Below are positions 3,861 through 58,910 of a stretch of 64,000 nucleotides of DNA, piece by piece. The stretch's first letter is position 1. Each line of letters opens with the position of its first letter. The notes under the pieces were generated by a model. The model had not been told where the DNA came from and did not search any database. It was given only the letters and a program-made list of their open reading frames with translations. The translations under genes and the position numbers were made by a program. The DNA is from Bacteroidales bacterium (lineage in GTDB: Bacteria; Bacteroidota; Bacteroidia; Bacteroidales; VadinHA17). Location: positions 128,947 through 192,946 of the forward strand of contig JALONT010000001.1 of assembly GCA_025454795.1 (NCBI GenBank). The letters are read 5' to 3'.

Positions 3861-6740
3861 TCATAATCTCCTCCTGCCGATACTCATTCCGTAAATGTCG
3901 ATACTAAACAGCAATTCATATGATGGAAATTCCCCGAATTTTTTCCAGGCAGCCTGAACTCCGCTTGATATCATGTATGGGATTCTGAACAGATAAAAAT
4001 CAGAGAGAAGCTCTATTCCAAACGAGCTGAATGTTTCGGTTCCCCTGTTTCTGATTTTTGTATCCAGATGATAATTGTCTGTACCCTGTGCATAATCAAA
4101 GAAGAATCCGGATCGTATTCTTGTAAGGTAAAACAATGATGAGATATTAAGGTCTGGATAAAGAAGAGGCATTGAATAATCAAATGAAAAGAAATCAAGC
4201 TTTGTGGATATTATATTCAAATAACTTCGCGGGTAATGTATCCTGTTACCCGAATAGAATTTTTCAAATTCCTGTTTTTCAGTCTCATACCTGATACGGA
4301 TTGAATTGTTCGGGAAGATACCAGGGAAATAGAAGGCTGTCCTCAAAGCAAGATCATGTCCGTATATTATCTTATCAAATGGTGCAAATGTATATGACAG
4401 ATCAAAGACCTGTGCCCACCTGGTATTTATATCACGATATGCAAATCTGTAATAGTTTGCAAAATATAACCGTCCAGTCATCTGGAACTGCCCGTAATCA
4501 TATGTATTTCTTTCCTTCAAATAAATATATCGGTTTAAATAGTCTACAGAAAAGGAAGAATAAATTGTCTGTGAAAATTGTCCCGGAGAGAATGAAAGCG
4601 GAATAGAAATAGTGTTTGTAAATTTTGTCAGGGGATTCGGATTTAAAGGAGTCCAGAGCACGTTTTCCCCGACCTTATCAATGTATGGTGAGTATCCGTA
4701 ATCAATTCCGGATTCAAATACAGGATACCACCCTTTCCATGCTACCCTGGAATGAAGAATGTGTCTTTTATCTGCAGAATACTCATATCCGGCAGAGGCA
4801 ATCAGAGTGCTGAGCTGATTCTGGGACATTACAGTAATTCCGGGCCGCACTGAAACAGGGTCAGACTGAATTTCTTTAATATCTGCATAAAACGGCATCC
4901 AGCTGTGAATCCCAAACAGGTGCTGCCACTTTCTGTATGGCTGAGGCGAATATTCGCCGGCAGAAGGCTCTTCCTCCTTGCTCATGTTAAAGTTAAACCT
5001 GTCAGCCAGGTAAGAAACAGGCCTGACGGGAGAAGAGGTATTTTCTGAAATTTCAGAGAGAGAGACCACACATATGTTATTCCCTGATGAAGAATAATCG
5101 CTGAACATTAGGGAAGATCCGTTTATGCTAAGATCAGTTGCTCCGAAACGTGAACGGGTGACAGGTACTATTTTATTACCCGGGGTGCGAAGAAAGATAT
5201 TATCACTTCCTGAAGCTGAAGAGACATAGAAAAGAGAATCATTTCTCAGAAATGAAGATTGCAGGTCATTTCTTCCGGCTTCAACCAGGATCTTCCAGAC
5301 TTTTTCCCGGGTATTATATGACATGATCCCTTCTCCCGCATCTGTTAAAAATATAACAGTAATGAAACGGCCATCATCAGACCATTGAGGTCGCTGAAGT
5401 GAGACATTCCCGGGAGAGGGAATACTCTCCAGGCGGCTTCCATCTTTCGGACTGATTATTACGATGGAGTTTTTATCATCCGGGCTGTTTTCATATGCTG
5501 CAATTAAGCTGCCATCAGAAGAAATGGAAGCTGCCAGATACCTTGATTTTGTTGTCAGTTGTTTTACTACACCCGATTTTATATTCTTCAGTTTAATAAC
5601 AGAATATTCTCTGTTTTCCCACCTTGGATCACCATGTGTCTCAACCCAGACAATTTTACCTCCGCCCAGTGAGAAAAAATATGGAAAGATCTGTCCTGGA
5701 GAGAAAAGCTTTTTCTCAGATATCTCAGATGGCCGTATAAGTACAAATGAAGGAGGATCAGACAATGAAGTCTTGATTGCAATAACGGAATCAAAACCGG
5801 CAGACACAGGAGAATAATAATTCACATAATCCTTTTTCTTTGGAGGATTTACCGGCTCGTAAGATAGTGGTCTGCTTCGCAATATATCTTCTTTCCATAG
5901 CGTCCTGAGACTGTCGAAGGTCTGGGTGAAAAGCCTTTCTTTTGTCAGACGGGCATCTCTGGTGAGACTGATATTTACAGGATTTAGTGTAAATGGCTGG
6001 TTTGCAGTAAATTTCAATGCCCTGTTCCAAAGCTGCAAATCATTTTTTACAAAAGACCAGGCCACCATCTGGTAACCGTACTGATAATGATCCGGCGTAT
6101 AATCCCTGAAAGAACTGTTAAGCATTTTGTCATATTTATAGAGATGGTCATTTTCAATGACAATTGCTTTAAGCTCTTTCTGGAATGAAGGAATTCTTCC
6201 CCTTCCCGATTCAGTAAGCACAGATTCAGCAAATACGGCATCACCTTCCATGTACCAGAGCGGCAGGAGAGAAGCAATGACCCCTTGAAATTGCTGGCCG
6301 AGAACAAAAGACAGAATTCTTGAAAAACCGGTATTCAGTGATTCCATTTGCATAACATGTGTGAGCTCATGCAGGGCAAGCTGCCTGTTCTGATCAAGCG
6401 GTATTGTGTTTTGATCCGGGGTAGGGTAAAGCTCCATCCTTTTTGGAGCCCACGCAACATACCCGTTAGACCGAATAGTATAATTATGAATTATAACAGG
6501 GATTTTTAATTTTCTTTCAGGAAAAAGTATTGAAAGGTCATTGGTTGACTTTTCGAGTTCCTCAGCATATTTGAGTCCCTCTATGCCATAACTCTCAGGG
6601 TAGATTACCCGAAAATTTTTGGTTTTAACCTGAAGCCATTTAAGATTAGCCGGATCCTGGCCGGTATTATAATACTGACCGGAAACGGCAAACGATAAAC
6701 AAATAAATAGGGCAGAACAGTATATTCTAAGGGGCTGCAT
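3861..6740 (-). CDS. Secreted gluzincin-like peptidase / TolB-like propeller / outer-membrane barrel protein
   Basis: A 959-aa exported protein with signal peptide at residues 1-20. The N-terminal part carries a zinc-peptidase-like motif HELTH at 124-128, then WYMEGDAVFAES at about 162-173 as a possible third-ligand segment. The middle has PD40/TolB-like propeller repeats (for example PQWSDDGRFITVIFL). The C-terminal 300 residues look like transmembrane beta-strands rich in Tyr/Phe. The architecture recurs in Bacteroidota and suggests surface anchoring. Whether it is an active protease is not shown. It converges with the decarboxylase (11-bp gap) and diverges from the DUF2723 gene. Confidence 0.8.
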   Translation of the reverse strand: MQPLRIYCSALFICLSFAVSGQYYNTGQDPANLKWLQVKTKNFRVIYPESYGIEGLKYAEELEKSTNDLSILFPERKLKIPVIIHNYTIRSNGYVAWAPKRMELYPTPDQNTIPLDQNRQLALHELTHVMQMESLNTGFSRILSFVLGQQFQGVIASLLPLWYMEGDAVFAESVLTESGRGRIPSFQKELKAIVIENDHLYKYDKMLNSSFRDYTPDHYQYGYQMVAWSFVKNDLQLWNRALKFTANQPFTLNPVNISLTRDARLTKERLFTQTFDSLRTLWKEDILRSRPLSYEPVNPPKKKDYVNYYSPVSAGFDSVIAIKTSLSDPPSFVLIRPSEISEKKLFSPGQIFPYFFSLGGGKIVWVETHGDPRWENREYSVIKLKNIKSGVVKQLTTKSRYLAASISSDGSLIAAYENSPDDKNSIVIISPKDGSRLESIPSPGNVSLQRPQWSDDGRFITVIFLTDAGEGIMSYNTREKVWKILVEAGRNDLQSSFLRNDSLFYVSSASGSDNIFLRTPGNKIVPVTRSRFGATDLSINGSSLMFSDYSSSGNNICVVSLSEISENTSSPVRPVSYLADRFNFNMSKEEEPSAGEYSPQPYRKWQHLFGIHSWMPFYADIKEIQSDPVSVRPGITVMSQNQLSTLIASAGYEYSADKRHILHSRVAWKGWYPVFESGIDYGYSPYIDKVGENVLWTPLNPNPLTKFTNTISIPLSFSPGQFSQTIYSSFSVDYLNRYIYLKERNTYDYGQFQMTGRLYFANYYRFAYRDINTRWAQVFDLSYTFAPFDKIIYGHDLALRTAFYFPGIFPNNSIRIRYETEKQEFEKFYSGNRIHYPRSYLNIISTKLDFFSFDYSMPLLYPDLNISSLFYLTRIRSGFFFDYAQGTDNYHLDTKIRNRGTETFSSFGIELLSDFYLFRIPYMISSGVQAAWKKFGEFPSYELLFSIDIYGMSIGRRRL

Positions 6741-6756
6741 TTTTCTGAATATTGCT

Positions 6757-6764
6757 CAAAAATA
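6757..6764 (-). promoter_or_regulatory. Candidate -7 box for the gluzincin/barrel gene
   Basis: On the minus strand TATTTTTG fits TAnnTTTG and lies 17 bp before the ATG at 6740, so the leader would be very short. No -33 box is seen at proper spacing. Weak evidence. Confidence 0.3.
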
Positions 6765-6864
6765 GGAAAATAAGTGAGTTGAAGAGTTGTGACAATGAAA
6801 AGAAAAATAAGTATTTTCGTCGTCTGATCCGAAATCGAGGGTCTTCAGTTAAACAAGAGAATTG

Positions 6865-9800
6865 ATGAAAAAATACAGGCTGATAAATAATATAACAGGA
6901 TGGGTGGTTTTTGCCATTGCAGCATTTACCTATCTCAGGACAATTGAACCGACAGCCAGCCTCTGGGATTGCGGTGAATTTATTGCATCAGCATTCAAGC
7001 TGGAGGTAGGACATCCCCCCGGAAACGCTGTCTTCATGGTTTTTGCAAGGTTCTTCACCTTGTTTGCTGGAGGCAATGTATCGCATGTTGCAGCAATGGT
7101 AAATGCAATGTCAGCAATTGTCAGTGCGTTTACGATCCTTTTTCTTTTCTGGACAATAACTCATCTTGCACGCAAAATCGTTGTAAAAGATGAATCCGGA
7201 TTCACACAGGCAAGAATAATTGCTGTAATGGCTGCAGGAATTGTGGGAGCCCTTGCTTTTACATTTTCTGATTCATTCTGGTTTTCTGCAGTTGAAGGTG
7301 AAGTATATGCAACTTCATCCCTCTTTACAGCTACTGTATTCTGGGCAATTCTGAAATGGGAAGATGAAGCTGATCAGGAATTTGCCGACAGGTGGATAAT
7401 TCTGATTGCATTCCTTATGGGTCTTTCAATAGGTGTCCATCTTCTCAATCTGCTTACTCTTCCGGCTATTGTGCTTGTATATTATTTCAAAAAATTTAAT
7501 TTTTCCTGGAAAGGATTCATCTATTCCATTGCCCTGTCATTCATAATTCTTGCGCTGTTGATGTGGGGCATCCTGCCTGGAATAGTAAAGATCTCATCAA
7601 GGTTTGACCTCTTTTTTGTAAACAGGTTAAGGCTTCCTCAGAACAGCGGAATGATCTTTCATATAATCCTGACAGCCGCTCTTTTCATTACCGCTATAAA
7701 ACTATCACTGAAATCCGGGAACAATAGCAGGAATGCATTAATTGCAATAGCAGCTCTTTTCTTTACCGGAATCTGGGTTGTTTCAGAATCGGCATTTATT
7801 AATGTACTGATTCTTGCAGCTGTATCAGGAGTCGTATGGTACATTGCCGCAAAGGACAGAGTTATTCTAAATACCCTGCTGACAGCAGTTACAGTCATTC
7901 TCATAGGATATTCATCCACTGCCATCATTGTGATCAGATCAACAGCTGATACCCCGCTGAACGAAAATAATCCATCCAATCCGTTCAGCCTTTTATATTA
8001 TCTGAACAGAGAACAATACGGGCAACGGCCCCTGATTAAAGGTCCATATTATAATGCACCTGTTCTGGATTATAAAGACGGGAAACCGGTATATGTACTT
8101 GAAGACGGTAAATATGTGATAACACACAGAAACCTTGAAAGGATTTATGATGAAAGATTTATCACTCTCTTCCCGAGGATGTGGAGCGAACAGGGCGATC
8201 ATGCAGCGGTATATAAGGAATGGGGCGGATCAGAAGGGATTCCATTACAGGTTACTGATCAATCGGGACAAAAGGCGACAGTAAGAAAGCCAAAATTCAG
8301 AGAGAACCTCAGGTACATGCTCTCCTATCAGTACGGATATATGTACTTCAGATATTTTATGTGGAATTTTTCGGGGAAGCAGAATGATACGCAGGGTACA
8401 GGAGGTGCTGTCAACGGAAACTGGATAACGGGAATAAAGTTCATTGATGAACCAAGGTCGGGAACTTACGATCTTCCTGCTGATCAGAAAAATGACACTT
8501 CGAGAAACAGATATTTTCTTCTGCCGTTCATTCTTGGAATTGCAGGGCTTTTTTACCAGCTTAATAAGGATAATAAGAACTGGTGGATAGTAATGCTTTT
8601 ATTTATTATGACAGGCATTGCCATTGTTTTCTACCTCAATCAGTATCCGAACCAGCCCAGGGAGCGTGATTATGCATATGTGGGATCATTTTATTTTTTT
8701 TCTGTCTGGATCGGGCTTGGAGTCCTCGCAATTTTTGAGCTGCTGGCAAAGTTGACCGGAGAAAAAGCAGCTGCCCCGCTTGCGGGTATACTTTGCTTAT
8801 TTGCAGTTCCTGTTATAATGGGTTCGGAAAACTGGGACGACCATGACCGGTCCGGACGTTACCTGGCAAGAGATGTTGCATTTAATTATCTTGAGTCGTG
8901 TGCACCAAATGCAATCCTGTTTACAAACGGAGATAATGACACTTTCCCTCTCTGGTATGCCCAGGAGGTTGAAGGAAAGAGAACAGATATGCGTGTCTGC
9001 AATCTGATGCTGCTAAATACCGACTGGTACATCGACCAGATGAAAAATAAAGTATATGAGTCGGATCCACTTCCGGTTACGCTTCCTTCTAAAAAATACT
9101 ACGACGGAATTAATAACCAGGTTTTCATCGTTGAAAAAACAAAAGATCCCGTTGATATATCGACAGTCATTGACTGGGTGAATAGCGAAAATAAAGGAAC
9201 CAAAGTACAGATTTCAGCAACAGAGGTCCTTGATATAATTCCAACCAGGACCATTCGTATCCCGGTTGATAGAAAGAAAGTTCTTGAATCCGGGACTGTA
9301 AAGCCTGAAGATTCTTCCAGGATCGTTCCTTATATTGATATCCGGCTTAAAGGGAACTCAATTCTCAAGAGTCAGCTGATTGTCCTCGATATTCTCGCTC
9401 ATAACGACTGGAAGCGGCCAATTTATTATGTAACAGGTTATCATAATGATGCGCTTGGGCTTGAGGAATACTTCCAGCTCGAGGGTCTTGCTTTCCGTTT
9501 AATTCCGATTAGGTCAGCCAATAAAAGCTGGCTCGATTATGGACGCATTGATACAGATATCCTGTACGGGAACATTATGAATAAATTTGTCTGGGGTGGA
9601 GCAAATGATAAAAAAGTAAATATTGATCATAATCATAAGCGGACAATCATTGTTATAAAAGCACGGCTGAATTATGCAAGGCTTGCCAAAGCTCTTGCAG
9701 GAGAAGGAAAAAATGAAAAGGCCCTTGCTGTCCTTGACCGGTGCATGGAAGTGCTTCCTCTGGAGAGGATTCCATATGATTCATATGTACCGGATCTGAT

Positions 9801-10676: not shown

Positions 10677-12569
10677 ATGGATAAGCATACCGGATTTCTC
10701 AGATCAGGAATTCTGATACTTATACTGTTTCTCACAGTAAATAAAATTTCCGGACAGGAAGGATTTGAAAATCCTACAAGGGCTGTCTACGTATTTGATA
10801 TGGCAAGATATATTGATTACGGACCCGGTTTTGCAGATTCATCTGTATTTAAAATAGGACTCCTGGATAACAATTACGAACTTTTCTATGAGATGGGTAA
10901 CCTGAAGATGACCCGTAAAACGATTCAGAACAAACCTGTCCAGCTTGTTTTATTCAGAAGCGAGGATAAGATAATTCATACCCAGATATTATATGTAAAC
11001 AAAACCAGCGGCTTTAATCTGAACAAAATAAAAGAGAAGCTGGAAGGACATCAGACAATGCTGATCACTGAAGGTTATGAATTTCGGGAATCCATGATAA
11101 ATTTTGTGGTATTTAACGGGAAGCCAAGGTTTGAAGCAAATGAAGATATGATTAAAAAGGCCGGGATGTCAGTAAATCAGAATTTCTTGTTTTCTGCGAT
11201 AAAAACCAAGGAGGACTGGGAAAATCTGTTTGTTATAACCGATGCGGATCTTCAGGTACAGAAGGAAACTGTAAGGCAGCAACAGCTTGAAATTGAAAGG
11301 CAGAAGGCTGAGATCCTCAGGCAAAAAGCGCTTCTCGATAGTCTTGACAAAGAGATAACCTTAAAAGAAAAGACTCTCCTCGAAAAGCAAAAAGTTCTTA
11401 ATGCCCAGATGGTTCAGATATCAAAACAAAAGGGAGAAATATCTGTCCAGCAAAAAACTATTATTGTTCAGCAGCAGGAAGTACAGGTTCAGAAAGATAC
11501 TCTGACAGATCAGAGACAGAAGATAGGACTTCAGATTGCTAAGATTAATGACCAGCTTAAAAAGATCTCCGACCAGGAAAGCAAAATTAAATTACAACTG
11601 GCCACCCTGGAGAAGCAGAAGCTGATCCTTTACTTTGTACTTCTCGCACTTCTTCTTGTCAGCTTTCTCGGGTATTACATCTACCGTGGATATAAGATCA
11701 AGAAAGAGGCAAACATTAAGCTTGAAGAAAAAAACAGGACAATATCTCTCCAGAAAGATGAAATTGAAGAACAAAAAAATCTTGCTGAAGCCCAGAGAGA
11801 TCAGATTGCTTACCAGAAAAAGCATATCACCGACAGTATAATGTATGCCAAAAGAATACAGACTGCTCTTATACCATCTCTTGAGCTTTTCAGCGATAAG
11901 CTTGAACACTTTGTCCTGTATAAACCGTTAGCTATTGTCAGCGGTGACTTTTACTGGGTCAGTTCGCAGGGAAGCAAGCAGGTGATAATTGTCGCCGATT
12001 GCACGGGTCATGGTGTCCCCGGTGCATTCATGAGCATGCTTGGGGTGACCATGCTGAACGAAATAGTTAATGGGAAGCATATTTTAGTACCTGACCAGAT
12101 AATAGAACATCTCCGTCAGGGTGTTATCAAATCACTCAATCAGGTAGCTGATGAGGATTCTGTAAAAGACGGGATGGATATCTCAGTCTGTGTTGTTGAT
12201 TTTAGTGAAAATACACTTTTATATGCCGGGGCAAATAATCCCCTTTACGTGGTACGCGGAGGCGAACTTGTACATTACCGTGCAGATAAGATGCCGGCAT
12301 CAATACATTACAGAATGCTTCCTTTCACCCTTCATAAGATAGATCTTCATAAAGGTGATTCGTTTTATATCTTTTCCGATGGTTTTGCTGATCAGTTTGG
12401 AGGTCCTGTACAAAAGAAATTCATGTCAATGAAGCTGAAAGAGACACTTGTGGCAATGGCCGGTCAGCCAATGCTTAAGCAGGGAGAAAGACTGAATGAA
12501 ATATTTGAGGGATGGCGTGGCGAAAGCCCTCAGGTCGACGATGTAACGTTATTAGGAGTGCGCTATTAA
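10677..12569 (+). CDS. YfiR-like sensor / coiled-coil / SpoIIE-type PP2C phosphatase membrane protein
   Basis: A 630-aa protein with signal peptide at about 1-26. A YfiR/DUF4154-like domain spans about 35-175; its typical elements are a family-like start, 'KIGLLDN', and a closing 'MINFVVFNGKPRFEAN' segment. A Gln/Lys-rich coiled coil covers about 195-315, a transmembrane helix about 318-337, and a second helical linker leads to a SpoIIE/PP2C serine phosphatase domain from about 400 (SGDFYWV, ADCTGHGVPGAFMSML, FSDGFADQFGG). In the family such phosphatases drive partner-switching or SiaA-like pathways. The periplasmic domain presumably senses envelope state. Its stop overlaps the next, convergent gene by 3 bp. 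Confidence 0.88.
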   Translation: MDKHTGFLRSGILILILFLTVNKISGQEGFENPTRAVYVFDMARYIDYGPGFADSSVFKIGLLDNNYELFYEMGNLKMTRKTIQNKPVQLVLFRSEDKIIHTQILYVNKTSGFNLNKIKEKLEGHQTMLITEGYEFRESMINFVVFNGKPRFEANEDMIKKAGMSVNQNFLFSAIKTKEDWENLFVITDADLQVQKETVRQQQLEIERQKAEILRQKALLDSLDKEITLKEKTLLEKQKVLNAQMVQISKQKGEISVQQKTIIVQQQEVQVQKDTLTDQRQKIGLQIAKINDQLKKISDQESKIKLQLATLEKQKLILYFVLLALLLVSFLGYYIYRGYKIKKEANIKLEEKNRTISLQKDEIEEQKNLAEAQRDQIAYQKKHITDSIMYAKRIQTALIPSLELFSDKLEHFVLYKPLAIVSGDFYWVSSQGSKQVIIVADCTGHGVPGAFMSMLGVTMLNEIVNGKHILVPDQIIEHLRQGVIKSLNQVADEDSVKDGMDISVCVVDFSENTLLYAGANNPLYVVRGGELVHYRADKMPASIHYRMLPFTLHKIDLHKGDSFYIFSDGFADQFGGPVQKKFMSMKLKETLVAMAGQPMLKQGERLNEIFEGWRGESPQVDDVTLLGVRY

Positions 12570-35494: not shown

Positions 35495-36586
35495 TCAAAC
35501 AGCCATACTCCTTCTGATCGGAGGATCAGGATTATAATCTTCTACAACAAAATCATCAATAGTCAGCTGATCAAAGGGTTTTTTTGTAATGTGTAATTTT
35601 GGTAAAGGTTTGGGTACTCTTGACATTTGTTCAAGAATTGCAGTTACATGATCATATTTTTCTTCATTGCCGTCACTGGGAGCATTTTTATTAATCCAAT
35701 CAACTACTTCTAAATATTCTTCTTTTGCAGAAACATTTCTTATTCTTTTTTGCAGTTCCCTGAAATTATCTCTGTGCCATTGAGTTCTCTTCCCAATACT
35801 GGCATAAAAATGTGAATCTCCGAAAGTATGGATAAATGTTTTAGGAACCATCCCCGCTTCCTGAGCAATTACCTGGGTAAGAGCAGCATAACTGGCTATA
35901 TTAAAAGGAACACCCAGAAATTGATCACAACTTCTCTGGTAAAGTTGCAATTCTAACTCGCCTTCTTCATTAGCAGTTGCCTGATATAAAACATGACATG
36001 GAGGCAAAGACATTTTTGGAGTGTCTCCGGGATTCCATGAATCAACAATATGTTTTTTCCCGGTTGGTTTCTTTCTTAGACCATTTATCAATTGTTTCAG
36101 TTGATCTATTTCAACAAACTCCTCTTTGTCATGATCAAAATATTCCCATCTCCTCCATTGTTTCCCATAAATTGGTCCGGCATCGCCCCATTTTTCTGCA
36201 AACGCAGGGTCTTCTTTTATTCTCTGACCATAATCTTCCATTGCTTTGTCCCAATCAGGAGAATACTTTGCAATACCTTCAGGAAAAATTCCTTCTTTTT
36301 GCATCCCGGGAAGATTGCCCTGAAAAGCATCGGGTCTCCAGATAGGGGCGTTATTGTCTTCAAGATATTTAATATTTGTATCCCCTCTTAAGAACCATAT
36401 TGTTTCATGAAACATAGATCTTGTAGCCATCTTTTTAGTAGTTAATAATGGGTACCCTTCTCTAAGATCATATTCGTTTTGATACCCGAATAAAGAGATA
36501 ATCCCGGATTCTTTGCTTCCCCCTTTAAAATTTGAACGATCAGAGGTTAAAATTGCTTTTGCATGATCTAAATATTGTTGCGCCAT
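35495..36586 (-). CDS. thyA: Thymidylate synthase, enlarged form
   Basis: ThyA methylates dUMP to dTMP using methylenetetrahydrofolate. The catalytic cysteine is C197 in LPPCHVLYQ, and the dUMP site has QRSCDQFLGVPFNIASYA. At 363 aa it is about 100 residues longer than E. coli ThyA (264). Extra segments lie before GPIYGKQWR (about 85-135) and between the folate region and PLPKLHI (about 290-335). Both regions look well formed and the frame is intact. No folA neighbours it. Confidence 0.93.
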   Translation of the reverse strand: MAQQYLDHAKAILTSDRSNFKGGSKESGIISLFGYQNEYDLREGYPLLTTKKMATRSMFHETIWFLRGDTNIKYLEDNNAPIWRPDAFQGNLPGMQKEGIFPEGIAKYSPDWDKAMEDYGQRIKEDPAFAEKWGDAGPIYGKQWRRWEYFDHDKEEFVEIDQLKQLINGLRKKPTGKKHIVDSWNPGDTPKMSLPPCHVLYQATANEEGELELQLYQRSCDQFLGVPFNIASYAALTQVIAQEAGMVPKTFIHTFGDSHFYASIGKRTQWHRDNFRELQKRIRNVSAKEEYLEVVDWINKNAPSDGNEEKYDHVTAILEQMSRVPKPLPKLHITKKPFDQLTIDDFVVEDYNPDPPIRRSMAV

Positions 36587-49444: not shown

Positions 49445-51529
49445 TTACTTATCTGTTTCTCGATTCTTAAGATGCTTCTTTATTAATGAAAGAAGTTCAT
49501 CTTTATTTATTGGTTTTGAAATATAATCGTTGCATCCGGCTTCGATTGCCATCTCTTTGTCGCCTTTTTGTGCATAAGCTGTCTGTGCAAAAATAACTAT
49601 ATCCCTGTTTAATTGACGGATTTGCCTTGTCGCCTCATATCCATCCATTTCAGCCATTTTAATATCCATAAGTACTAAATCAGTATCAGGATTATTCAAG
49701 TATGCTTCAACTGCTTCGAGCCCGGTTTTGGCTATTAATACTTCTTTACTGATTTTTTTGATCATTCTGGAAATCAGCAATACCGATGCATCATCGTCTT
49801 CGGCGATTAATATTTTAAGGTTTTTTAATCTGAAATCTTCTTCATCTGGTGGAACAGCATTTTTATTATCGTTGCTTTTAATTTGTTCAGGATTATACGG
49901 AATTGTAAAATAGAATATAGAGCCACCTTTGTTCCGATAGCTGATTACATCACTTTCTACCCAGATTTTGCCACCAAGCATCTCTACATAATTTTTAGAT
50001 ATAAATAAACCCAGACCAGCACCTTCATAATTTCTATTAAGGGAATCACTTCCTTGCCTGAATCTTTCAAAGATGGTTTCCTTTTGTTCCAAAGTAATGC
50101 CAATCCCTGTATCTTTTACATAGAACTCAATGTTGGCTCCCTTTTTTTTATATCCAAATTCAATTGATCCTTCATTAGTAAACTTGATAGCATTTTTAAC
50201 CAGGTTGGTAAGAATGGCGAGTAGTTTTTCATTATCGGTACAAATAATTGCTTTGTTATCAGGAATATTATTTACAAAGGAAATCTTCAATCCTTTTTTT
50301 TCTGCTTCAGGTTTGAAAAAGTTGTGGATATACTCTGTTTGTTCGTTTATATTACATTCTGAAATAGAAATATTCATCTGTCCTGATTCAATCTTTGAGA
50401 CATCTATCAGGTCATTGATGATATTGAGCATTCTGACACCGCTGTTTCTTATTATATTGATATACTCGTGCATTTCGTTGCTGGCAAGCATAGGATTCTT
50501 CAACAGTTCGGCAAATCCCAGGATACCGTTCATTGGCGTTCGTATTTCATGGCTCATATTGGCAAGGAAAGCAGATTTAAGGCGGTCGCTTTCCTGAGCT
50601 TTTTCTTTGCTTTTAATTAACTCTTGTTCAATATTTTTTATATCTGATATATCCCTTAAGTGCTCTATGACATAGAGTAATTCTCCTTTTTCATTTAAAA
50701 TGGGATAAGAACGCATATCGAACCAAATATTGTATTCGGGGAAGAATTGCTGATGGATCTCCGTTTTTTTCGATAAATAACAATCGGCAGTTGAACATAT
50801 CTCGCACCTCGTATTCCTGCCAATTAAACTAAAGCATTTCTTACCTGAAACTTCTTCAGGTGTGAGATGAAGAAAATCATACCCTGCTTTATTGTATCTT
50901 ATTACTTCATGATCGTTGTTCTGTATACCAATCATATCTGGTATTGCATCAAGGATAGCGTTGAGCAATGATGCAGTCGCAATATTTCTTTCATGGCTTT
51001 CCGAAAGTTCTTCTTCTACTTTTTTGCGTTGGGTGATGTCCCTTGCCAACCCTAATACCCTACATTGATTTTTGATTTTAATCGGATAAGTGATAATTTC
51101 TACAACTACTTCTGATCCGTCTTTTCGGGTTAGTAAAAATTCATCCGGCCCGGTAGCTTGCCCTAATGAATTTTTGAGTAATAGTTTGGCTGCTAGTGGT
51201 ATCTGTTTAAAAGACAGAAGGTTCAATTTCAGGTAATTCTTTCCGATTAATTCGTTTTTACCCTGCCCAAGCAATTTTTCAGCAGCAATATTCCCGTCTA
51301 TTAAAGTGCCTTTAAGATCGCTTAGAAAATAAGCATCGGGTGCGTAATCAAACAAAATCTTAAACTGCTCTTCCGAGCCTATCAATTTGGCCTTAACCAA
51401 ATTAAGCTCTTTGATTTCTGCTTCTAGTCTTAAAACTTCAGCAGCTTTTAACTTCAAAAAATTATTTTCCTCTCGCAAATTCGCTAATTCTTTAATCAGC
51501 TGTTCTTTGCTTTTGATATTATCATCCAT
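49445..51529 (-). CDS. PAS-PAS hybrid histidine kinase with C-terminal receiver
   Basis: A 694-aa cytosolic sensor: N-terminal coiled coil about 1-50, PAS about 53-168, a second PAS about 190-300, HisKA with H327 (NMSHEIRTPMNG), HATPase with N- and G-boxes (DTGIGITLEQ, GAGLGLFISK), and a receiver with phospho-Asp in LVLMDIKM. The second PAS has four cysteines (C232, C242, C245, C250), a possible metal or Fe-S site. A strong Shine-Dalgarno AGGAGG lies 8 bases before the ATG. It may sense metal or redox state for the receptor next to it; that link is inferred. Confidence 0.9.
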   Translation of the reverse strand: MDDNIKSKEQLIKELANLREENNFLKLKAAEVLRLEAEIKELNLVKAKLIGSEEQFKILFDYAPDAYFLSDLKGTLIDGNIAAEKLLGQGKNELIGKNYLKLNLLSFKQIPLAAKLLLKNSLGQATGPDEFLLTRKDGSEVVVEIITYPIKIKNQCRVLGLARDITQRKKVEEELSESHERNIATASLLNAILDAIPDMIGIQNNDHEVIRYNKAGYDFLHLTPEEVSGKKCFSLIGRNTRCEICSTADCYLSKKTEIHQQFFPEYNIWFDMRSYPILNEKGELLYVIEHLRDISDIKNIEQELIKSKEKAQESDRLKSAFLANMSHEIRTPMNGILGFAELLKNPMLASNEMHEYINIIRNSGVRMLNIINDLIDVSKIESGQMNISISECNINEQTEYIHNFFKPEAEKKGLKISFVNNIPDNKAIICTDNEKLLAILTNLVKNAIKFTNEGSIEFGYKKKGANIEFYVKDTGIGITLEQKETIFERFRQGSDSLNRNYEGAGLGLFISKNYVEMLGGKIWVESDVISYRNKGGSIFYFTIPYNPEQIKSNDNKNAVPPDEEDFRLKNLKILIAEDDDASVLLISRMIKKISKEVLIAKTGLEAVEAYLNNPDTDLVLMDIKMAEMDGYEATRQIRQLNRDIVIFAQTAYAQKGDKEMAIEAGCNDYISKPINKDELLSLIKKHLKNRETDK

Positions 51530-51647: not shown

Positions 51648-51798
51648 GGCTAATGGCCCGGCAATATGGGGAGGTTGTGTAACACGACGCAATTTCGGCC
51701 GACCAGAAGTCCTGGTTTAATGGCAGAAGATATCTTTCGGCCGGAAAAGGAGGGTATGCCGTGACAAACCTATTTATTTTATTGACCGTGTTGTAGCC
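51648..51798. repeat. Cassette-boundary element B (about 151 nt)
   Basis: It starts GGCTAATGGCCCGGCAATAT and ends GTTGTAGCC. The outer CGG-CAATA pairs with TATTG-A-CCG (51658 and about 51779) and GAGGTTGT with ACAAACCT. The internal part holds two further small hairpins around CGGCCG. It is followed by AGTGTTATATTAGTTGTCAAG, nearly as at element A. It lies in the 332-bp gap between the kinase and the trehalose genes, otherwise empty. Confidence 0.6.
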
Positions 51799-51861: not shown

Positions 51862-54081
51862 TCAATTAATAGTAGCCATTGTTCTTAATAAGCTTGCAGC
51901 CCATGAATAAATATTATGTCTGACAATTATAAGTCGCATTTGTGTCATTCGTTTATTCTGTTCTTCTGTAGTCATTTCCAAAGCTAATTTTATAGCATCT
52001 GCTGTTTTTTCTATGTCATAAGGGTTAACAATAATTGCTCCCTGAAGTTCCTGCGATGCTCCGGCGAAACGACTTAGTATAAGAGACCCGTCATTGAGAT
52101 TTCGTGAAGCAACAAATTCTTTTGCGACAAGGTTCATACCATCATGCAGTGATGTAACCATGCAAAAATTTGCAGAAGAATAAAAGGGAGCTATCTCTTC
52201 GTGACTGTGATGCCGTTTTAAGAGAAGTATAGCCTTCCAGTTTTTTGATTTGAACCGCCAGTTGATTCTGTTAGATTCATTTTCAACAGCACTTACCATG
52301 TCAGAATAGCTTTTTAGTAGAGTTCGGCTCGGTGCGCCTATTTGAACAAAAGTAAATTTCCCGATATAAGAGGGATTCTTTTCCAAAAATCGTTCAATAG
52401 CAAGAAATTTTTCTATGATACCTTTTGTATAATCAATCCTGTCTACACCTATGCCCATAAATTGCGAAGTAATACCATGTTCATATAACAGTTGGGATGG
52501 TTTTATTTTTGTTGAATTATTATCGTAATCTTTTAATGTGAATGCAATGCTGATGGGAAACGATTTGACCAAAGTTGTACGGCCACCCATTTTTACTGAA
52601 AAATTCTCCCATAAAACTCTAGATTCAAGCGCATTATTTACTGTTTCAAGAAAATGGTTACAATGATACTGTGTATGAAATCCGATTAAATCAGCACCAA
52701 GCATCCCATGTAGTATTTCTCTCTGCCATGGACAAATACCAAATGATTCTGGATTTGGCCAGGGAATATGCCAGAATATGGCAACTTTAGCTTTGGGTTT
52801 TTCTTTTTTTATCAGTTCAGGTAGTAATGCGAAATGAAAGTCCTGAATTAAAATATAAGGTTGTTCTTCATTTTTTGTTTCATCCAGCACGGCTTTGGCA
52901 AAATCTTCATTAACTTTTTTGTAATAATGCCAATCATCATTTCTGAATGTAGGACGTGTATGTGCGATATGACAGAGCGGCCAAAGTCCTTCATTTGAAA
53001 AGCCATAATAAAAATGGTCTTCTTCTTCTTTTGTCAACCATAATCTTTTTAACGTGTATTTTGGTTCTTCTGGAGGAACCTCCACTTTGTCATTTTTGTT
53101 TACGGTTTCTTTATCTGCGTCCCCTGTCCCTGATGCGATCCATAGTCCACTGCATGCTTTCAATATAGGCTCCATGGCTGTAATCATTCCGCTTGCAGGA
53201 ACAATGCATTTTATTTCCTTACCTTCGTGGATGTGCATATATGGCTCACGATTGGAAACAACAATCATTTTCTTCTTTTGTAAAAGATTTTCCATTTCCA
53301 CTTTAAGTCGTTCGGGTGTCCAAATGGCTTCTGCACTTGTTCTTAACCGTGCTTCTTCTTCAGCCGTGGCCTTGGCTTCATGCATTGCTTTTGCTATGTA
53401 TTCAATCTCTTTATGCAAAGGGTCAAGAAATTTTAAATACGGTTGCGGTTTTATTTGTCCTGTGCTGCCTGTGCGCACGGCCTTTGCCCAATCTACAATT
53501 TTATTTATAGGACTAAAAATTCCCCAACGGATAATAAGTAAAGTGACAAGAGATACTAAAAATGCCTGAATAAACCATCTTATAAAATTCCGAAACCATA
53601 TTTTGCCAATGATTGTATCAATGTAGCCGGCATCAGTATAAAAGACAACAGCATTATTGGATATATCTGCCCGGTTTCCCGGTTTGATATATTGATATAT
53701 GCTTTCCCCTGCAATTGTGAAAAAATTTCCAAGAGATGTATCAGCAGTTATTGATTGTGAAATGTAGTCCATCGAATGGTTAATAAAATTACGGGTAGCA
53801 TTGTTGCTTATAATACTATCGATGTTGTAATAAACTGCAATACCCAGTAAATTGTACCGTTTGTTGATACTGTCTGCAAAACGCTCAATATTATGTTGAT
53901 CTACTATTTCAAAAAAAAAGGTATCGCCCTGAAGTATATCCTCTGTTACCTGTTCAGTGCGGATTTCAAGTTCTCGAATTAGTTTATTCCTTTCAGTTGT
54001 ACTCTGGTAAAAAGTAAATCCAAATGCTACCAGTCCAACAGCAAAAACTATTGTAAGTATGAATGCAAGTGTTAATCTCAT
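51862..54081 (-). CDS. Trehalose-6-phosphate synthase fused to a membrane sensor/HAMP module
   Basis: A 739-aa protein. Residues 1-24 and 168-188 are transmembrane helices enclosing an about 140-residue extracytoplasmic domain. A HAMP-like segment about 190-245 follows. From about 272 the rest is a GT20 T6P synthase (IVVSNREPY, HIPWPNPESF, VDRIDYTKGI, SLHDGMNLVAKEF). OtsA normally is about 470 aa and soluble, so the sensor-like front end is unusual. It makes trehalose 6-phosphate from UDP-glucose and glucose 6-phosphate. The gene overlaps otsB by 4 bp and is translationally coupled to it. Confidence 0.93.
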   Translation of the reverse strand: MRLTLAFILTIVFAVGLVAFGFTFYQSTTERNKLIRELEIRTEQVTEDILQGDTFFFEIVDQHNIERFADSINKRYNLLGIAVYYNIDSIISNNATRNFINHSMDYISQSITADTSLGNFFTIAGESIYQYIKPGNRADISNNAVVFYTDAGYIDTIIGKIWFRNFIRWFIQAFLVSLVTLLIIRWGIFSPINKIVDWAKAVRTGSTGQIKPQPYLKFLDPLHKEIEYIAKAMHEAKATAEEEARLRTSAEAIWTPERLKVEMENLLQKKKMIVVSNREPYMHIHEGKEIKCIVPASGMITAMEPILKACSGLWIASGTGDADKETVNKNDKVEVPPEEPKYTLKRLWLTKEEEDHFYYGFSNEGLWPLCHIAHTRPTFRNDDWHYYKKVNEDFAKAVLDETKNEEQPYILIQDFHFALLPELIKKEKPKAKVAIFWHIPWPNPESFGICPWQREILHGMLGADLIGFHTQYHCNHFLETVNNALESRVLWENFSVKMGGRTTLVKSFPISIAFTLKDYDNNSTKIKPSQLLYEHGITSQFMGIGVDRIDYTKGIIEKFLAIERFLEKNPSYIGKFTFVQIGAPSRTLLKSYSDMVSAVENESNRINWRFKSKNWKAILLLKRHHSHEEIAPFYSSANFCMVTSLHDGMNLVAKEFVASRNLNDGSLILSRFAGASQELQGAIIVNPYDIEKTADAIKLALEMTTEEQNKRMTQMRLIIVRHNIYSWAASLLRTMATIN

Positions 54082-54836
54082 AAGGATAACTGTTTTAAGA
54101 GAAATACAACATCGTTGATACTGGTAAATTTATATTTGGCAAAAGTATCTCCGTTTCCGACTTTAATAGTATATGCCTTGGTAATATGGGAAAAAAACTC
54201 AAACATCTCTTCATCTGTTGCGTCATCTCCAATTGATAATATGAAATCATAATTTTTTTGCTCAAATAATTTCATTACAGCTTTCCCCTTGCCAACTTCA
54301 TTAGTCATTACTTCTACCACTTTATTTCCATCCAGTATTTTTAAATCATAAGAATGAATTATTGCTTCTAAGTTATTGATTAATTTTCTTGAGTGAGCAA
54401 ATCCCGATTGCGATTCAGCATTTCTGTAATGCCATGCTAATGAAAAATCTTTTTCCTCAATAAATGATTCAGGGCATTCAGCAGTAATCTGATTCAAAAT
54501 GGGGATGACTGTTTCTTTCCAAGAGCAATTATTGTTTATCTGATTTTCCCATCTACCTCTTTCTCTAATTATTGCTCCATGCTCTGCAATAATATTAATT
54601 GGAAGATTAGCGAAGATTTTATCAGTTTCCTGATGACCTCTTCCAGTGATTATAAATATTTCTGTTTGTGGAGTGTCAAGCAGTCTTATAAGAATATCAA
54701 ATAAGTGATCAGTCAATTTGGCAGCAACAGGCATAGGCGTAAAATCAACTAAAGTCCCGTCATAGTCAAGCAGAACCATCCTGCTATCTGCGTTTCTGTA
54801 CTTTTTTATCAATTCTGCTTTTTTAAAATCGTTCAT
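54078..54836 (-). CDS. otsB: Trehalose-6-phosphate phosphatase
   Basis: A 252-aa HAD-superfamily phosphatase that makes trehalose from its 6-phosphate. The nucleophile motif is D24-Y-D26 in LLDYDGTLVDF, the motif II Thr is in FIITGRG, and the metal Asp pair is in SIGDDATDEEMF. It precedes and overlaps the sensor-linked synthase gene, giving a compact two-step trehalose operon. The divergent GH15 gene shares its upstream region. Confidence 0.93.
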   Translation of the reverse strand: MNDFKKAELIKKYRNADSRMVLLDYDGTLVDFTPMPVAAKLTDHLFDILIRLLDTPQTEIFIITGRGHQETDKIFANLPINIIAEHGAIIRERGRWENQINNNCSWKETVIPILNQITAECPESFIEEKDFSLAWHYRNAESQSGFAHSRKLINNLEAIIHSYDLKILDGNKVVEVMTNEVGKGKAVMKLFEQKNYDFILSIGDDATDEEMFEFFSHITKAYTIKVGNGDTFAKYKFTSINDVVFLLKQLSL

Positions 54837-55061
54837 AATAATTATGGGTAATTTTTTTAGCTCATTTGTTTATTAATTGGAAATAAGATTCTGACCGAAT
54901 GCAAAATTACCAATTTCCCAGAGAAAGATTGTTAATTTCCCTGTTATATGCTAAGGTCTTATTACACAATAAAATTCATTACTATCTTTGTTATAGAAAA
55001 CAATAAAATCTGTTCCTTATTGTCAGGCAAAGTATTCGGGCAATCATCAAAGGAATTTATT

Positions 55062-56855
55062 ATGGATAATTTGAATTATGGTGTAATTGGCAATTGCAGG
55101 AGTGCAGCCCTGATTTCAGATAAGGGAAGTATAGACTGGTGTTGTCTCCCCGATTTTGATTCCCCTTCCGTATTCGCGAAGCTTATTGATAACGATAATG
55201 GAGGGTATTTTAGTATTATTGCAGATGATAAATATATAATCACACAAAAGTACATAATCTGGACAAATGTTTTATGTACAGAATTTAAATCTGAACAGGG
55301 TACATTTGAGGTAATTGACTTTATGCCCCGTTACAAACTAGTTGAGAATGACTATTTTGCACCCGCTGAAATTTATCGGTATATAAAACACATTTCAGGT
55401 TCTCCAGCCTTCAGAGTAGTATACTGCCCTATGTTTAATTATGCCAGGGAGGAAGTTTCTAATGTAATTATTGATAACTATATACGGACATTTTCACGGG
55501 TAAAACCAACAGATTGCATTTATCTCTATAGCAGCTTAAACTTCGATGATATCCTGAAATCAAAAGAAATAGCAATTACAAAACACCAGTTTCTTTTACT
55601 GTCATATAACCAAAAACTGATTGATATAGATATTAAAAGGGTTTACCTGGAATTCCAGCGTACAAAAGTATACTGGCTTAACTGGACAAACCGTTCAAGA
55701 AAGTATAAGAAATATACCGAAGAAATAAACAGGAGTTTACTGGTATTAAAAGTTATGTCTTATCAACCTACCGGAGCTGTATTAGCAGCGTTAACGACCA
55801 GTATCCCGGAAACTATAGGTGAGGTACGTAACTGGGATTATCGTTTTTGTTGGTTACGCGATGCATCCATGTCGATAGATACATTACTTAAAATGGGCCA
55901 TACCAATTCCGCTCGGCGTTTTATGGTTTATTTAAAAGGAATTCTTAAATCGAAGAACGATTCATTCCAGACAATGTACGGCATTAGAGGTGAAAGGGAG
56001 CTTACTGAAACAGATCTTCCTCATCTGGCCGGGTATGAAAACTCAAAACCTGTGAGAATTGGGAATGCTGCTTTCTCCCAGAGACAAAATGATGTCTTTG
56101 GTTATTTACTGAATGTTATATACCAATATTACAAGGTTTTCCCCGGCACATTAGATGAAATTGAAGATATTTGGGAGATCGTACGCAATATTTGCAGAAC
56201 CATAACAACTCATTGGGAAAAACCGGATAAAGGTATCTGGGAGATACGGAATGAGGAAAAACATTTTGTCTTCTCAAAAGTGATGAGCTGGGTTGCAATG
56301 GACAGGGCAACTGAAATAGCAAACATACTAAATAAAACATATTATGCTGAAACATGGCGGAGTATTGCAAATGACATTAAAGAAGACGTATTAAAGAACG
56401 GCTGGAAGGAGGATTTGCAAACATTTACCCAAACCTATTGTAATTCAGATCTTGATGCCTCTTTATTGCTCATGGCTGAATATGGATTTATTGCTTATGA
56501 TGATCTGAAGTATCAAAAAACCGTGAAGGCTGTTGAAAATGCACTTTTATATAACGGATTGGTATATCGTTATATAATCCATGATGATTTTGGTAAACCG
56601 ACGTCATCATTTACAATATGTACCTTTTGGTTAATTCAAGCTCTGTTCAGAATTGGTATGAAGGAGGATGCAAAGAATATTTTTGAAAATCTCCTCGCCT
56701 GTGGAAATCATTTAGGCCTTTTTAGTGAAGATATTGATTTCTCTACAAAACGACTTTTAGGTAATTTTCCTCAGGCTTATTCGCACTTAGCTTTAATTAA
56801 TACAGCAACTATTTTTTCAGAGGAAAGGGTAATTCCTAAATTTATTAAACCGTAA
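55062..56855 (+). CDS. Glycoside hydrolase family 15 protein (glucoamylase/trehalase-like)
   Basis: A 597-aa soluble GH15 protein. It has the usual N-terminal beta-sandwich (YGVIGNCRSAALISDKGSID, CCLPDFDSPSVFAK) and an (alpha/alpha)6 barrel with RNWDYRFCWLRDAS near residue 255 and a second acidic site further on. GH15 includes glucoamylases and the mycobacterial trehalase, and the genomic neighbourhood of otsAB favours trehalose. The frame extends upstream to 54948; the ATG at 55062, with AAAGGA before it, starts the standard MDNLNYGVIG N-terminus. Confidence 0.9.
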   Translation: MDNLNYGVIGNCRSAALISDKGSIDWCCLPDFDSPSVFAKLIDNDNGGYFSIIADDKYIITQKYIIWTNVLCTEFKSEQGTFEVIDFMPRYKLVENDYFAPAEIYRYIKHISGSPAFRVVYCPMFNYAREEVSNVIIDNYIRTFSRVKPTDCIYLYSSLNFDDILKSKEIAITKHQFLLLSYNQKLIDIDIKRVYLEFQRTKVYWLNWTNRSRKYKKYTEEINRSLLVLKVMSYQPTGAVLAALTTSIPETIGEVRNWDYRFCWLRDASMSIDTLLKMGHTNSARRFMVYLKGILKSKNDSFQTMYGIRGERELTETDLPHLAGYENSKPVRIGNAAFSQRQNDVFGYLLNVIYQYYKVFPGTLDEIEDIWEIVRNICRTITTHWEKPDKGIWEIRNEEKHFVFSKVMSWVAMDRATEIANILNKTYYAETWRSIANDIKEDVLKNGWKEDLQTFTQTYCNSDLDASLLLMAEYGFIAYDDLKYQKTVKAVENALLYNGLVYRYIIHDDFGKPTSSFTICTFWLIQALFRIGMKEDAKNIFENLLACGNHLGLFSEDIDFSTKRLLGNFPQAYSHLALINTATIFSEERVIPKFIKP

Positions 56856-57061: not shown

Positions 57062-57121
57062 GGCTATAACGGCCCGGTGGTATGGGCAGTAAGCTTATTG
57101 CCTATAACAGCGTTGTTAGCA
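57062..57121. repeat. Cassette-boundary element E (60 nt)
   Basis: It runs from GGCTATAACGGCCCGG to GTTGTTAGCA. The central GGCAGTAAGCTTATTGCC is a near-perfect hairpin. The outer GGCTATAAC is complementary (9 of 10) to GTTGTAGCCA that ends element B at 51790-51799, so the trehalose package is bracketed by matching inverted ends. A TTTTAAAACTGTCAAGGT motif follows. The rest of the 56856-57194 gap is empty. Confidence 0.6.
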
Positions 57122-57194
57122 CATGTATTAATTTTAAAACTGTCAAGGTATTATAAATCAGGCCTGATGCAGAAATATTGATGTCGAAAATGAA

Positions 57195-57539
57195 TTAGTT
57201 GTTAATCTCCAGACAGCCAATCTCTTTATAATTCGGATCAGTTAAGAATGCTTTGATGAGCTTGTAATTCTTTCTCAAGACAGTCTCAATGTTTTGTGTA
57301 TTTGTGTTCCCAAGTCTTAGCCAGATTACTTTAGGGGAGGATCCCTTGATAAGTCCAAGATCGTAAAAGGCGCCGTCAAATGTTACGATGCAATAATTAT
57401 TTTCTTTTGCATAATTCCATAGAAAAGAATCTTTGGAATTCTCAAGTCCTAAGTCCCGAACTTGTTTAGAACCAGGAAATAAGTCCTGGATTTTACTGGT
57501 GATCCTAAATGAAATATTTTGGTCAAGAAGGAATTTCAT
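57195..57539 (-). CDS. DUF5615 family PIN-like toxin
   Basis: A 114-aa protein with the DUF5615 opening FLLDQNISFRI and later 'DSFLWNYAKENNYCIVTFDG' followed by a short beta end (KVIWLRLGNT). The fold is Mut7-C/PIN-like with acidic residues that suggest RNase activity. It is paired with DUF433 protein just upstream (frames meet within a base), as in many type II toxin-antitoxin modules. Confidence 0.85.
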   Translation of the reverse strand: MKFLLDQNISFRITSKIQDLFPGSKQVRDLGLENSKDSFLWNYAKENNYCIVTFDGAFYDLGLIKGSSPKVIWLRLGNTNTQNIETVLRKNYKLIKAFLTDPNYKEIGCLEINN

Positions 57540-57760
57540 CAGATCGTCTGAAGTTTACGTTCCCTGTCAGCTGCGAACATTAAACTAGCGTTGATATCCT
57601 CTCTTGAAAGTTCAGGATAGTCATTGAGTACTTCTTCAAAACTCATTCCTGAACCTAACCATCCAAGAATATCAAATACAGTAATTCTGGTATTTCTGAT
57701 ACAAGGTCTTCCAAATCTCTTGTCGGAGCTGATTTTGATTATCTTGTTGTATGTTTTCAT
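57539..57760 (-). CDS. DUF433 family antitoxin
   Basis: A 73-aa helix-turn-helix protein with the DUF433 pattern 'GRPCIRNTRITVFDILGWLG' and 'FEEVLNDYPELSREDINASL'. These are antitoxins partnered with DUF5615 toxins. It starts about 54 bases downstream (minus sense) of a boundary box at 57815 and probably autoregulates the module. Confidence 0.88.
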   Translation of the reverse strand: MKTYNKIIKISSDKRFGRPCIRNTRITVFDILGWLGSGMSFEEVLNDYPELSREDINASLMFAADRERKLQTI

Positions 57761-57814
57761 GGCTCAAAGATACTACAATTTTGATTTTGACATATCTGGT
57801 TTTCCCTCGTTACC

Positions 57815-57943
57815 GTTAGCACATGTATTTTTCGTCGCGTGATGGGAGAGTCCCGGTAGAAAGTACTATTGTTAATTATATAACAGCTCTTTCCGGTTAC
57901 GGCGGGAGGACTAATCGTCAGATACAGAAATATATGTGCTAAC
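57815..57943. repeat. Inverted-repeat-bounded gene-less segment (129 nt)
   Basis: GTTAGCACATGTATTT (57815-57830) faces AAATATATGTGCTAAC (57928-57943), an inverted pair. The left string is also identical over 15 bases to the sequence after element E (57115-57129). The interior has no gene. An interior GTCCCGG/CCGG-GGACT pairing is possible. It looks like an empty or decayed cassette. Confidence 0.6.
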
Positions 57944-58029
57944 AGCCCGGCAATAAAATTAGTAGACAACTGTGTCAGCAGTAACTTTAGCGAAGGCTGG
58001 ACAAATGACCTTTTTTGTCCGTGTTAGCT
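57937..58029. repeat. Cassette-boundary element F (about 93 nt)
   Basis: It starts TGCTAACAGCCCGGCAATAAAA and ends TTTTTTGTCCGTGTTAGCT. The two arms pair: GCTAACA with TGTTAGC, and CGG-CAATAAAA with TTTTTTGTCCG. The left box is complementary to the cassette start at 57115 (GTTAGCACATGTAT), while the right box GTTAGCTGGTGTA is complementary to the start of element H. This is the pattern seen between successive integron cassettes. Confidence 0.65.
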
Positions 58030-58037
58030 GGTGTACT

Positions 58038-58379
58038 TTATTCAAGGTCCAGGATTACTTTAATATTCTCTTTGACTTTTAATTGAAGATCACGAGGAAG
58101 TTCTCCTACCTTATGTGTAAGTCGTCTGTTATCAACGGCTCGAATCTGGTCAATCATTATGTCAGAGTCACTTTTAAGATTTGCAGTCCCTTTCTTTATA
58201 TGTACTCTAAGTATTTCACTTTCAGGAACTATATTAGTTGTGATAGGGCAGATAACAGAAGAAGGATGATCTTTAAGTAGGCTCGTTTGAACTATTAGAA
58301 CAGATCTTACTTTGCCAGTTTCAGTGCCACGTTGTTGTTCCAGGTCGGCAATCCAGATATCAAATTGTTTAATTTTCAT
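58038..58379 (-). CDS. PemK/MazF-type toxin
   Basis: A 113-aa endoribonuclease-type toxin. It opens MKIKQFDIWIADLEQQRGTE, followed by 'RSVLIVQTSLLKDHPSSVIC' and QIRAVDNRRL, the usual PemK/MazF beta-barrel landmarks. The frame has an upstream TTG at 58403, but the ATG at 58379 is better and overlaps the antitoxin stop by 11 bases, as is normal in these operons. Confidence 0.9.
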   Translation of the reverse strand: MKIKQFDIWIADLEQQRGTETGKVRSVLIVQTSLLKDHPSSVICPITTNIVPESEILRVHIKKGTANLKSDSDIMIDQIRAVDNRRLTHKVGELPRDLQLKVKENIKVILDLE

Positions 58380-58599
58380 CTTGAAGGCTCTCAAATTCGG
58401 CAAGTACAGCTAAGGATTCTTTTTTAACTAGTCTTGATTCTCTTGCTAGTTTTCTGGAAATCAGGTTTCTCCGGTTGATCCTATTATAATAGTCAACTGC
58501 CTCATTTATGTATCTATTCCTTGACTTTTTAACTTTAGTTAGGACGTCTTCAGTCTCGTTGAAGATATTGTCGTCGAGTTTTAGTGATAGTGTTTTCAT
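58369..58599 (-). CDS. Ribbon-helix-helix-type antitoxin
   Basis: A 76-aa antitoxin: N-terminal RHH-like MKTLSLKLDDNIFNETEDVL and helical C-terminal toxin-binding part. I chose the ATG at 58599 over 58644 because the candidate promoter and operator at 58611-58652 lie between them, and an upstream start would place the operator within the coding region. It is coupled to the PemK toxin. Confidence 0.8.
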   Translation of the reverse strand: MKTLSLKLDDNIFNETEDVLTKVKKSRNRYINEAVDYYNRINRRNLISRKLARESRLVKKESLAVLAEFESLQDEN

Positions 58600-58610
58600 G
58601 TAATATGCTT

Positions 58611-58652
58611 TAAGTATACCGCAAAGGTATATACTTAATTTCATGTGTGCAA
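58611..58652 (-). promoter_or_regulatory. Toxin-antitoxin promoter with overlapping operator
   Basis: On the minus strand TTG (58652-58650), a 20-bp spacer and TACCTTTG (58629-58622) match the Bacteroidota -33/-7 consensus. The -7 box is embedded in an inverted repeat TAAGTATACC (58611-58620) with GGTATATACTTA (58626-58637). The layout fits autorepression by the antitoxin, with a start about 23 bp before its ATG. Confidence 0.7.
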
Positions 58653-58678
58653 TAGGGCAGCGAATAGACTCGTATACC

Positions 58679-58910
58679 AGCTAACGGCATGGCAATATGG
58701 GGAGGTTGTGTTCCGCCAGCCTTGCTCCGCCGCCTTCGTCGACCGTAGGTCGACTTTGGCGACCGAAGGCCGAAGCGGCTACGCGAAGGCGATGCTGGTG
58801 GATCGCGGTACAAACTATCTCGAAGGCAGAAATTTATCACGGTGCAGAATTTTAATTATGTGCAGATGTGCGTGCATGCCCTGAGCGGAGCGAAGGGTCC
58901 GGGTTATGGT
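58679..58910. repeat. Cassette-boundary element H containing GC-rich palindrome copy 2
   Basis: It begins AGCTAACGGCATGGCAATAT and GGGGAGGTTGTGTTCC, like elements A and B, then holds the GC-rich block (58711-58800) shared with 35304-35393. TACCAGCTAAC at its start is complementary to GTTAGCTGGTG ending element F, bracketing the PemK package. A right boundary may be GTTATGGTTAGTTGATTTT at 58903-58921; GTTATGATTAGTTGAATTTT recurs at 62415-62434. Confidence 0.6.

Follow-up and report, generated by a model that had tools for sequence, protein, structure and literature searches.

Our analysis of a 64,000-nucleotide stretch of Bacteroidales DNA (the window) identified a 739-amino-acid protein that, judged from its sequence and structural models, almost certainly joins a first transmembrane helix (TM1), a sensor domain, a second transmembrane helix (TM2), a HAMP-like relay, a helical linker, and a GT20 trehalose-6-phosphate synthase domain in one polypeptide (Table 1). 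The same evidence indicates that this protein is probably a one-component transmembrane receptor with a biosynthetic enzyme as its output.

Results

The gene is a single unbroken frame in the list of open reading frames, and hydropathy analysis of its product revealed only two hydrophobic helices, at residues 3 to 21 and 166 to 184. With Pfam Glyco_transf_20 matching residues 271 to 735 (399.4 bits, E = 2.7e-119; cut-off, 32.5), our data confirmed the first-pass annotation in placing a transmembrane module of about 270 residues ahead of a GT20 synthase. The AlphaFold model of the full protein (mean pLDDT 83, pTM 0.63; 30-row alignment) runs from a helix at residues 5 to 52 through a mixed alpha/beta domain ending at 150, a helix at 152 to 204, a loop, and helices at 217 to 252 and 256 to 267 into the catalytic domain; like all our structure models, it represents a monomer. 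The Aminobacter row was left out of our structure predictions. Between the HAMP-like segment (residues ~188 to 238) and the enzyme come a helix reaching 252/253 and the short helix at 256 to 267. The proposed outer domain is likewise present between the transmembrane helices, but at about 120 residues it is slightly smaller than the roughly 140 claimed.

Table 1. Features of the sensor-fused synthase and its neighbors (window positions; residues refer to the 739-amino-acid protein)
Feature	Position	Strand	Basis
Sensor-fused trehalose-6-phosphate synthase (putative), whole gene, 739 aa	51862..54081	-	Open frame; co-linear homologs
TM1 and beginning of long helix, residues 3-28	53998..54075	-	Hydropathy; model
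Predicted extracytoplasmic PAS/Cache-type sensor domain, residues 29-151	53629..53997	-	Model; Foldseek (WalK, Tlp3, GSU0935, other sensor domains); weak dCache_3 match
Helix with TM2, residues 152-187, hydrophobic core 166-184	53521..53628	-	Hydropathy; model
HAMP-like relay, residues ~188-238: AS1 (P191, G205), connector, AS2	53368..53520	-	hhalign; helix-loop-helix in models
Helical linker, residues 239-270: AS2 continuing to 253, then WTPERL helix	53272..53367	-	Indel-free stretch; model
GT20 trehalose-6-phosphate synthase domain (predicted), residues 271-735	51877..53271	-	Pfam; solved TPS folds; conserved catalytic residues
otsB, trehalose-6-phosphate phosphatase	54078..54836	-	Pfam Trehalose_PPase E = 1.1e-49; NCBIfam T6PP above cut-off
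Divergent GH15 trehalase-like gene	54948..56855	+	Glyco_hydro_15 and TREH_N; NCBIfam archaeal trehalase models below cut-offs

Modeled alone, residues 1 to 276 (pLDDT 77, pTM 0.53) form a long helix, a helix, two strands, a helix, three strands, and the TM2 helix, an arrangement resembling that of PAS/Cache domains. Foldseek ranked 9a5d, a model of full-length WalK, first for this segment (E = 3.0e-6, TM-score of 0.60 by query, 261 columns); the support is moderate since 9a5d is an integrative model and not a crystal structure. A McpB model comes next, followed, at E values of 1e-3 or weaker, by crystal structures of the sensor domains of Tlp3, WalK, GSU0935, DctB, and sporulation kinase D. 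On the basis of these models, we assign the outer domain a PAS/Cache-type sensor fold with moderate confidence. Pfam scans of the N-terminal half of 14 and then 26 members gave no usable family for the window protein, and dCache_3 gave weak matches to two of the 26 (E = 1.5e-4 at best). A sequence-profile search of the PDB with the same half returned only 3b42 (E = 0.058), a narrower profile returned nothing, and a search of plasmids gave no match.

The HAMP module claimed in the first-pass annotation is not detected in the window protein when Pfam HAMP (PF00672) is applied at its gathering score, with the best E value, 0.11, coming from 1 of 26 members. However, when hhalign compared the family segment spanning residues 180 to 252 with a profile built from 27 HAMP sequences of the window's genome and order, it produced a gap-free alignment of 63 columns (score 29.2, probability 83%). 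This similarity lies beyond the controls, in which 200 column shuffles reached 18.3 at best and segments without the HAMP stretch no more than 16.5. Thus, the lack of a HAMP hit, which had been named as grounds for rejection, holds literally for Pfam but is overturned by the more sensitive profile-profile comparison, and the claim stands on that comparison and on the predicted structure only. P191 and G205 sit at HAMP spacing, and helices follow TM2, while the signature is degenerate in the window's subclade. The DExG position reads K-F-L-D-P-L in the window protein, whereas several divergent members have D-[IL]-L-x-P-L there, and the simplest reading is therefore that the segment has decayed from a standard HAMP domain.

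Mean pairwise identity is 0.31 in both the outer domain and the HAMP connector, the two most variable regions, 0.59 in AS2 plus the linker, and 0.70 in GT20. Despite the 31% identity of the outer domain, residues 217 to 270 contain zero indels in 25 sequences, as expected if helix phase matters.

A single scan of genome contigs recovered 14 relatives at 63 to 94% identity, 12 of them intact over their full length and co-linear with the window protein; of the remaining two, L015 stops at a contig edge and L016 contains a frame break. The L016 copy (6001 to 8228) lies in two frames, with the break near 7176 to 7188, and may be a pseudogene or contain a sequencing error. Whole-genome searches detected additional full-length copies in other Bacteroidota genomes, 46 to 84% identical to the window protein, and more than 20 full-length relatives are co-linear with it. 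We placed 91 GT20 rows in a tree, where all 27 with the sensor fusion cluster together (SH-aLRT 95). This tree was a quick build with several long outer rows, which leaves its deep placements unsure, and it includes both L013 and L056, the same species from two collections. Near the fused clade lie soluble enzymes of about 500 amino acids that begin at a WT[RK][ED]RL helix, as well as two Aminobacter plasmid proteins with one transmembrane helix. Because the fused proteins form one clade and have co-linear relatives, the gene is not a frameshift or assembly join, and on this sequence evidence the sensor-GT20 fusion is genuine and conserved. Together with the WalK/chemoreceptor fold and the profile-profile HAMP similarity, the conserved single-clade fusion supports well the idea of a sensor-kinase input half joined to a metabolic enzyme.

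Our distribution survey, which covered the phylum Bacteroidota, found a strong match to the N-terminal half in 4 of 247 sampled genomes and the full fusion in 5 of 59 genomes of the window's own family, the window's own genome being counted in both cases; we therefore consider the fusion sparse. Apparent 200-residue extensions before GT20 in L028, L031, and L033, judged by eye, look like out-of-gene reading frame and not like other fusions. A membrane-bound or HAMP-linked trehalose-phosphate synthase was not found in the open-licence papers searched.

With respect to the enzyme, Foldseek matched the whole model to solved TPS structures, the best being 5jio (E = 3.8e-35). With the E. coli OtsA sequence as the reference, the window protein and each of the 23 fused relatives compared keep all 11 positions that we checked, which we take from established OtsA structures to serve donor binding, glucose-6-phosphate binding, and catalysis. 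The protein missed the cut-off of the NCBIfam OtsA equivalog TIGR02400 (413.7 versus 564.85 bits) and is for this reason filed as GT20 and not as an OtsA equivalog, and its exact donor and product are a matter of inference. The glucosylglycerol-phosphate synthase model scored lower, at 301.4 bits, and the clade carries its own motif variants, QD[FY]H, WHIPWP, and LHDGMN, beside the catalytic residues. We expect the GT20 domain to make trehalose-6-phosphate, with UDP-glucose as the probable donor.

The stop of otsB and the start of the synthase gene overlap by 4 nucleotides (ATGA), and the GH15 trehalase-like gene, which runs divergently from otsB, probably has its true start at Met39 (55062), judging from its relatives. 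Among 28 distinct sensor-fused loci, including that of the window (L145 is a repeat of L013), otsB is present in at least 22 and a GH15 or GH37 trehalase-like gene in at least 13, these counts being lower bounds since the flanks are unequal in length. MscS-type genes flank L010 on both sides and lie upstream of L136, making 2 of the 28 fused loci by this search, and such genes stand beside each of the four L027-type soluble-sister loci examined. By analogy with an operon of Thermoproteus tenax in which a putative mechanosensitive channel is encoded with a trehalose synthase under protein-level control (PMC3634074), the MscS neighbors suggest a possible osmotic role for the fused synthase. The synthase gene is followed, also on the minus strand, by one for a PAS-PAS-HisKA-HATPase-receiver hybrid histidine kinase (49445 to 51529), which is not a conserved neighbor in relatives.

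Elsewhere in the window, two toxin-antitoxin-like pairs lie on the minus strand at 57195 to 57760 and 58038 to 58644, the first made up of DUF5615 (PIN-like) and DUF433, the second of a PemK/MazF-like protein and, upstream of it, a small partner of no clear family. Both pairs are bracketed by short dispersed repeats around GTTAGC, located at 51649 to 51680, 57115, 57815, 57931, 58023, and 58673; with one mismatch allowed, GTTAGCNNNTGTA has 9 matches versus 2.8 expected, five of them within 57115 to 58685. These repeats may tentatively be likened to integron attC cores. A gene at 10677 to 12569 (plus strand) joins a DUF4154 (YfiR/HmsC-like) domain to a SpoIIE-type phosphatase. The thymidylate synthase encoded at 35495 to 36586 (minus strand) probably holds an insertion, since the 266-position Pfam model covers it from one end to the other although the protein, at 363 amino acids, has about 95 residues more.

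Discussion

We favor, without regarding it as settled, a mechanism in which the membrane module directly controls the GT20 enzyme. In this scenario, the protein would work as a dimer whose sensor detects or binds something on the outer side of the inner membrane, leading to a change of state in the HAMP dimer that the helical linker would pass to the GT20 domains. These would then raise or lower the synthesis of trehalose-6-phosphate from nucleotide-glucose, probably UDP-glucose, and glucose-6-phosphate. OtsB, from the overlapping gene, would turn this product into trehalose, which the GH15 enzyme may degrade. In this way, the membrane would be the place where trehalose output is adjusted, and no transcription step would be needed. 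An osmotic or envelope stimulus is our leading guess, a tentative one for which the support is circumstantial. Sensor control is supported by the intact co-linear frame, the single clade, the sensor fold, the HAMP similarity, the indel-free stretch, the active-site residues, the otsB overlap, and the MscS neighbors; against it we count the absence of Pfam HAMP, the degenerate DExG, the monomeric models, the integrative nature of 9a5d, and the missed OtsA cut-off.

Since close sister enzymes are sensor-free and the Aminobacter relatives have a bare single transmembrane helix without a sensor domain, selection may act on membrane attachment alone. The N-terminal half would then be mainly an anchor that localizes synthesis to the inner membrane (close to OtsB or to mechanosensitive channels, for instance), being derived from a receptor but no longer signaling. 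The poor conservation of the outer domain and the degenerate HAMP signature of the window's subclade agree with this reading, yet anchoring requires neither a whole PAS/Cache domain with a HAMP-like relay nor an indel-free linker, and the HAMP-like AS2 motif is retained in divergent members; we consider it unlikely. We see still less reason to doubt the output, although the missed equivalog cut-off, the clade's motif variants near the catalytic residues, and a second, conventional OtsAB in the same genome would fit a GT20 domain that no longer makes trehalose-6-phosphate but rather another glycoside phosphate, or that senses sugar phosphate as part of an inside-out receptor. The presence of all 11 OtsA residues checked, the overlap and co-occurrence of otsB, and the lower score for glucosylglycerol-phosphate synthase make such a change of function very improbable. 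That a frameshift, which the first-pass annotation had offered as a way to refute the fusion, or a fault in the assembly brought the two halves together is virtually inconceivable: nothing in the window points to it, the only break being the one in L016's own copy, and it is refuted by homologs sharing the same co-linear frame, with an indel-free joint, in many independent assemblies at 46 to 94% identity.

The outputs of HAMP receptors are kinases, chemotaxis proteins, cyclic-nucleotide enzymes, and phosphatases. A biosynthetic glycosyltransferase in that place would widen the range of what they control and, if our reading holds, would let an outside signal act on the supply of a stress protectant without transcription. 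Whether this represents a receptor class in which a Cache/PAS sensor and HAMP relay directly gate a metabolic enzyme, putting the synthesis of a compatible solute under allosteric control from the cell exterior without a kinase, second messenger, or transcription, is to our minds an evenly balanced question. The system lends itself to experiments, being a single polypeptide with a simple nucleotide-release assay and with natural soluble and single-transmembrane relatives as controls. Among open-licence papers and within our survey of Bacteroidota, what appears from the sequence to be new is the GT20 output on an otherwise known one-component HAMP receptor.

In catalytic domain, fold, and active-site residues, the protein is like E. 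coli OtsA (1UQT) and Candida albicans Tps1 (5HUV), but these enzymes are soluble and about 31% identical, whereas the 739-amino-acid protein adds a transmembrane sensor half of 270 residues. It shares the order of TM1, PAS/Cache-type domain, TM2, and HAMP-like relay with WalK-type histidine kinases, WalK being the best whole-length structural match to residues 1 to 276, and with Cache chemoreceptors; their output, however, is a kinase or chemotaxis signaling domain, while here it is GT20 and the HAMP signature is degenerate. The conventional OtsAB of the same genome (L001, 743 amino acids) belongs to the same pathway but is a soluble TPS-TPP fusion in a separate GT20 branch; beside it, at 2952 to 3815 of L001 (minus strand), lies an MscS-like gene, named from its translation only. 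The soluble sister clade (L027 and L062 to L071) falls in the same GT20 subgroup, with 45 to 50% identity over GT20, but its members start at the WT[RK][ED]RL helix and lack both sensor and transmembrane helices. Finally, the trehalose synthase of the T. tenax msc-gt-tpsp operon is under protein-level control, but there control is exerted by a separate partner protein (PMC3634074), whereas in the window protein it would come from a fused receptor.
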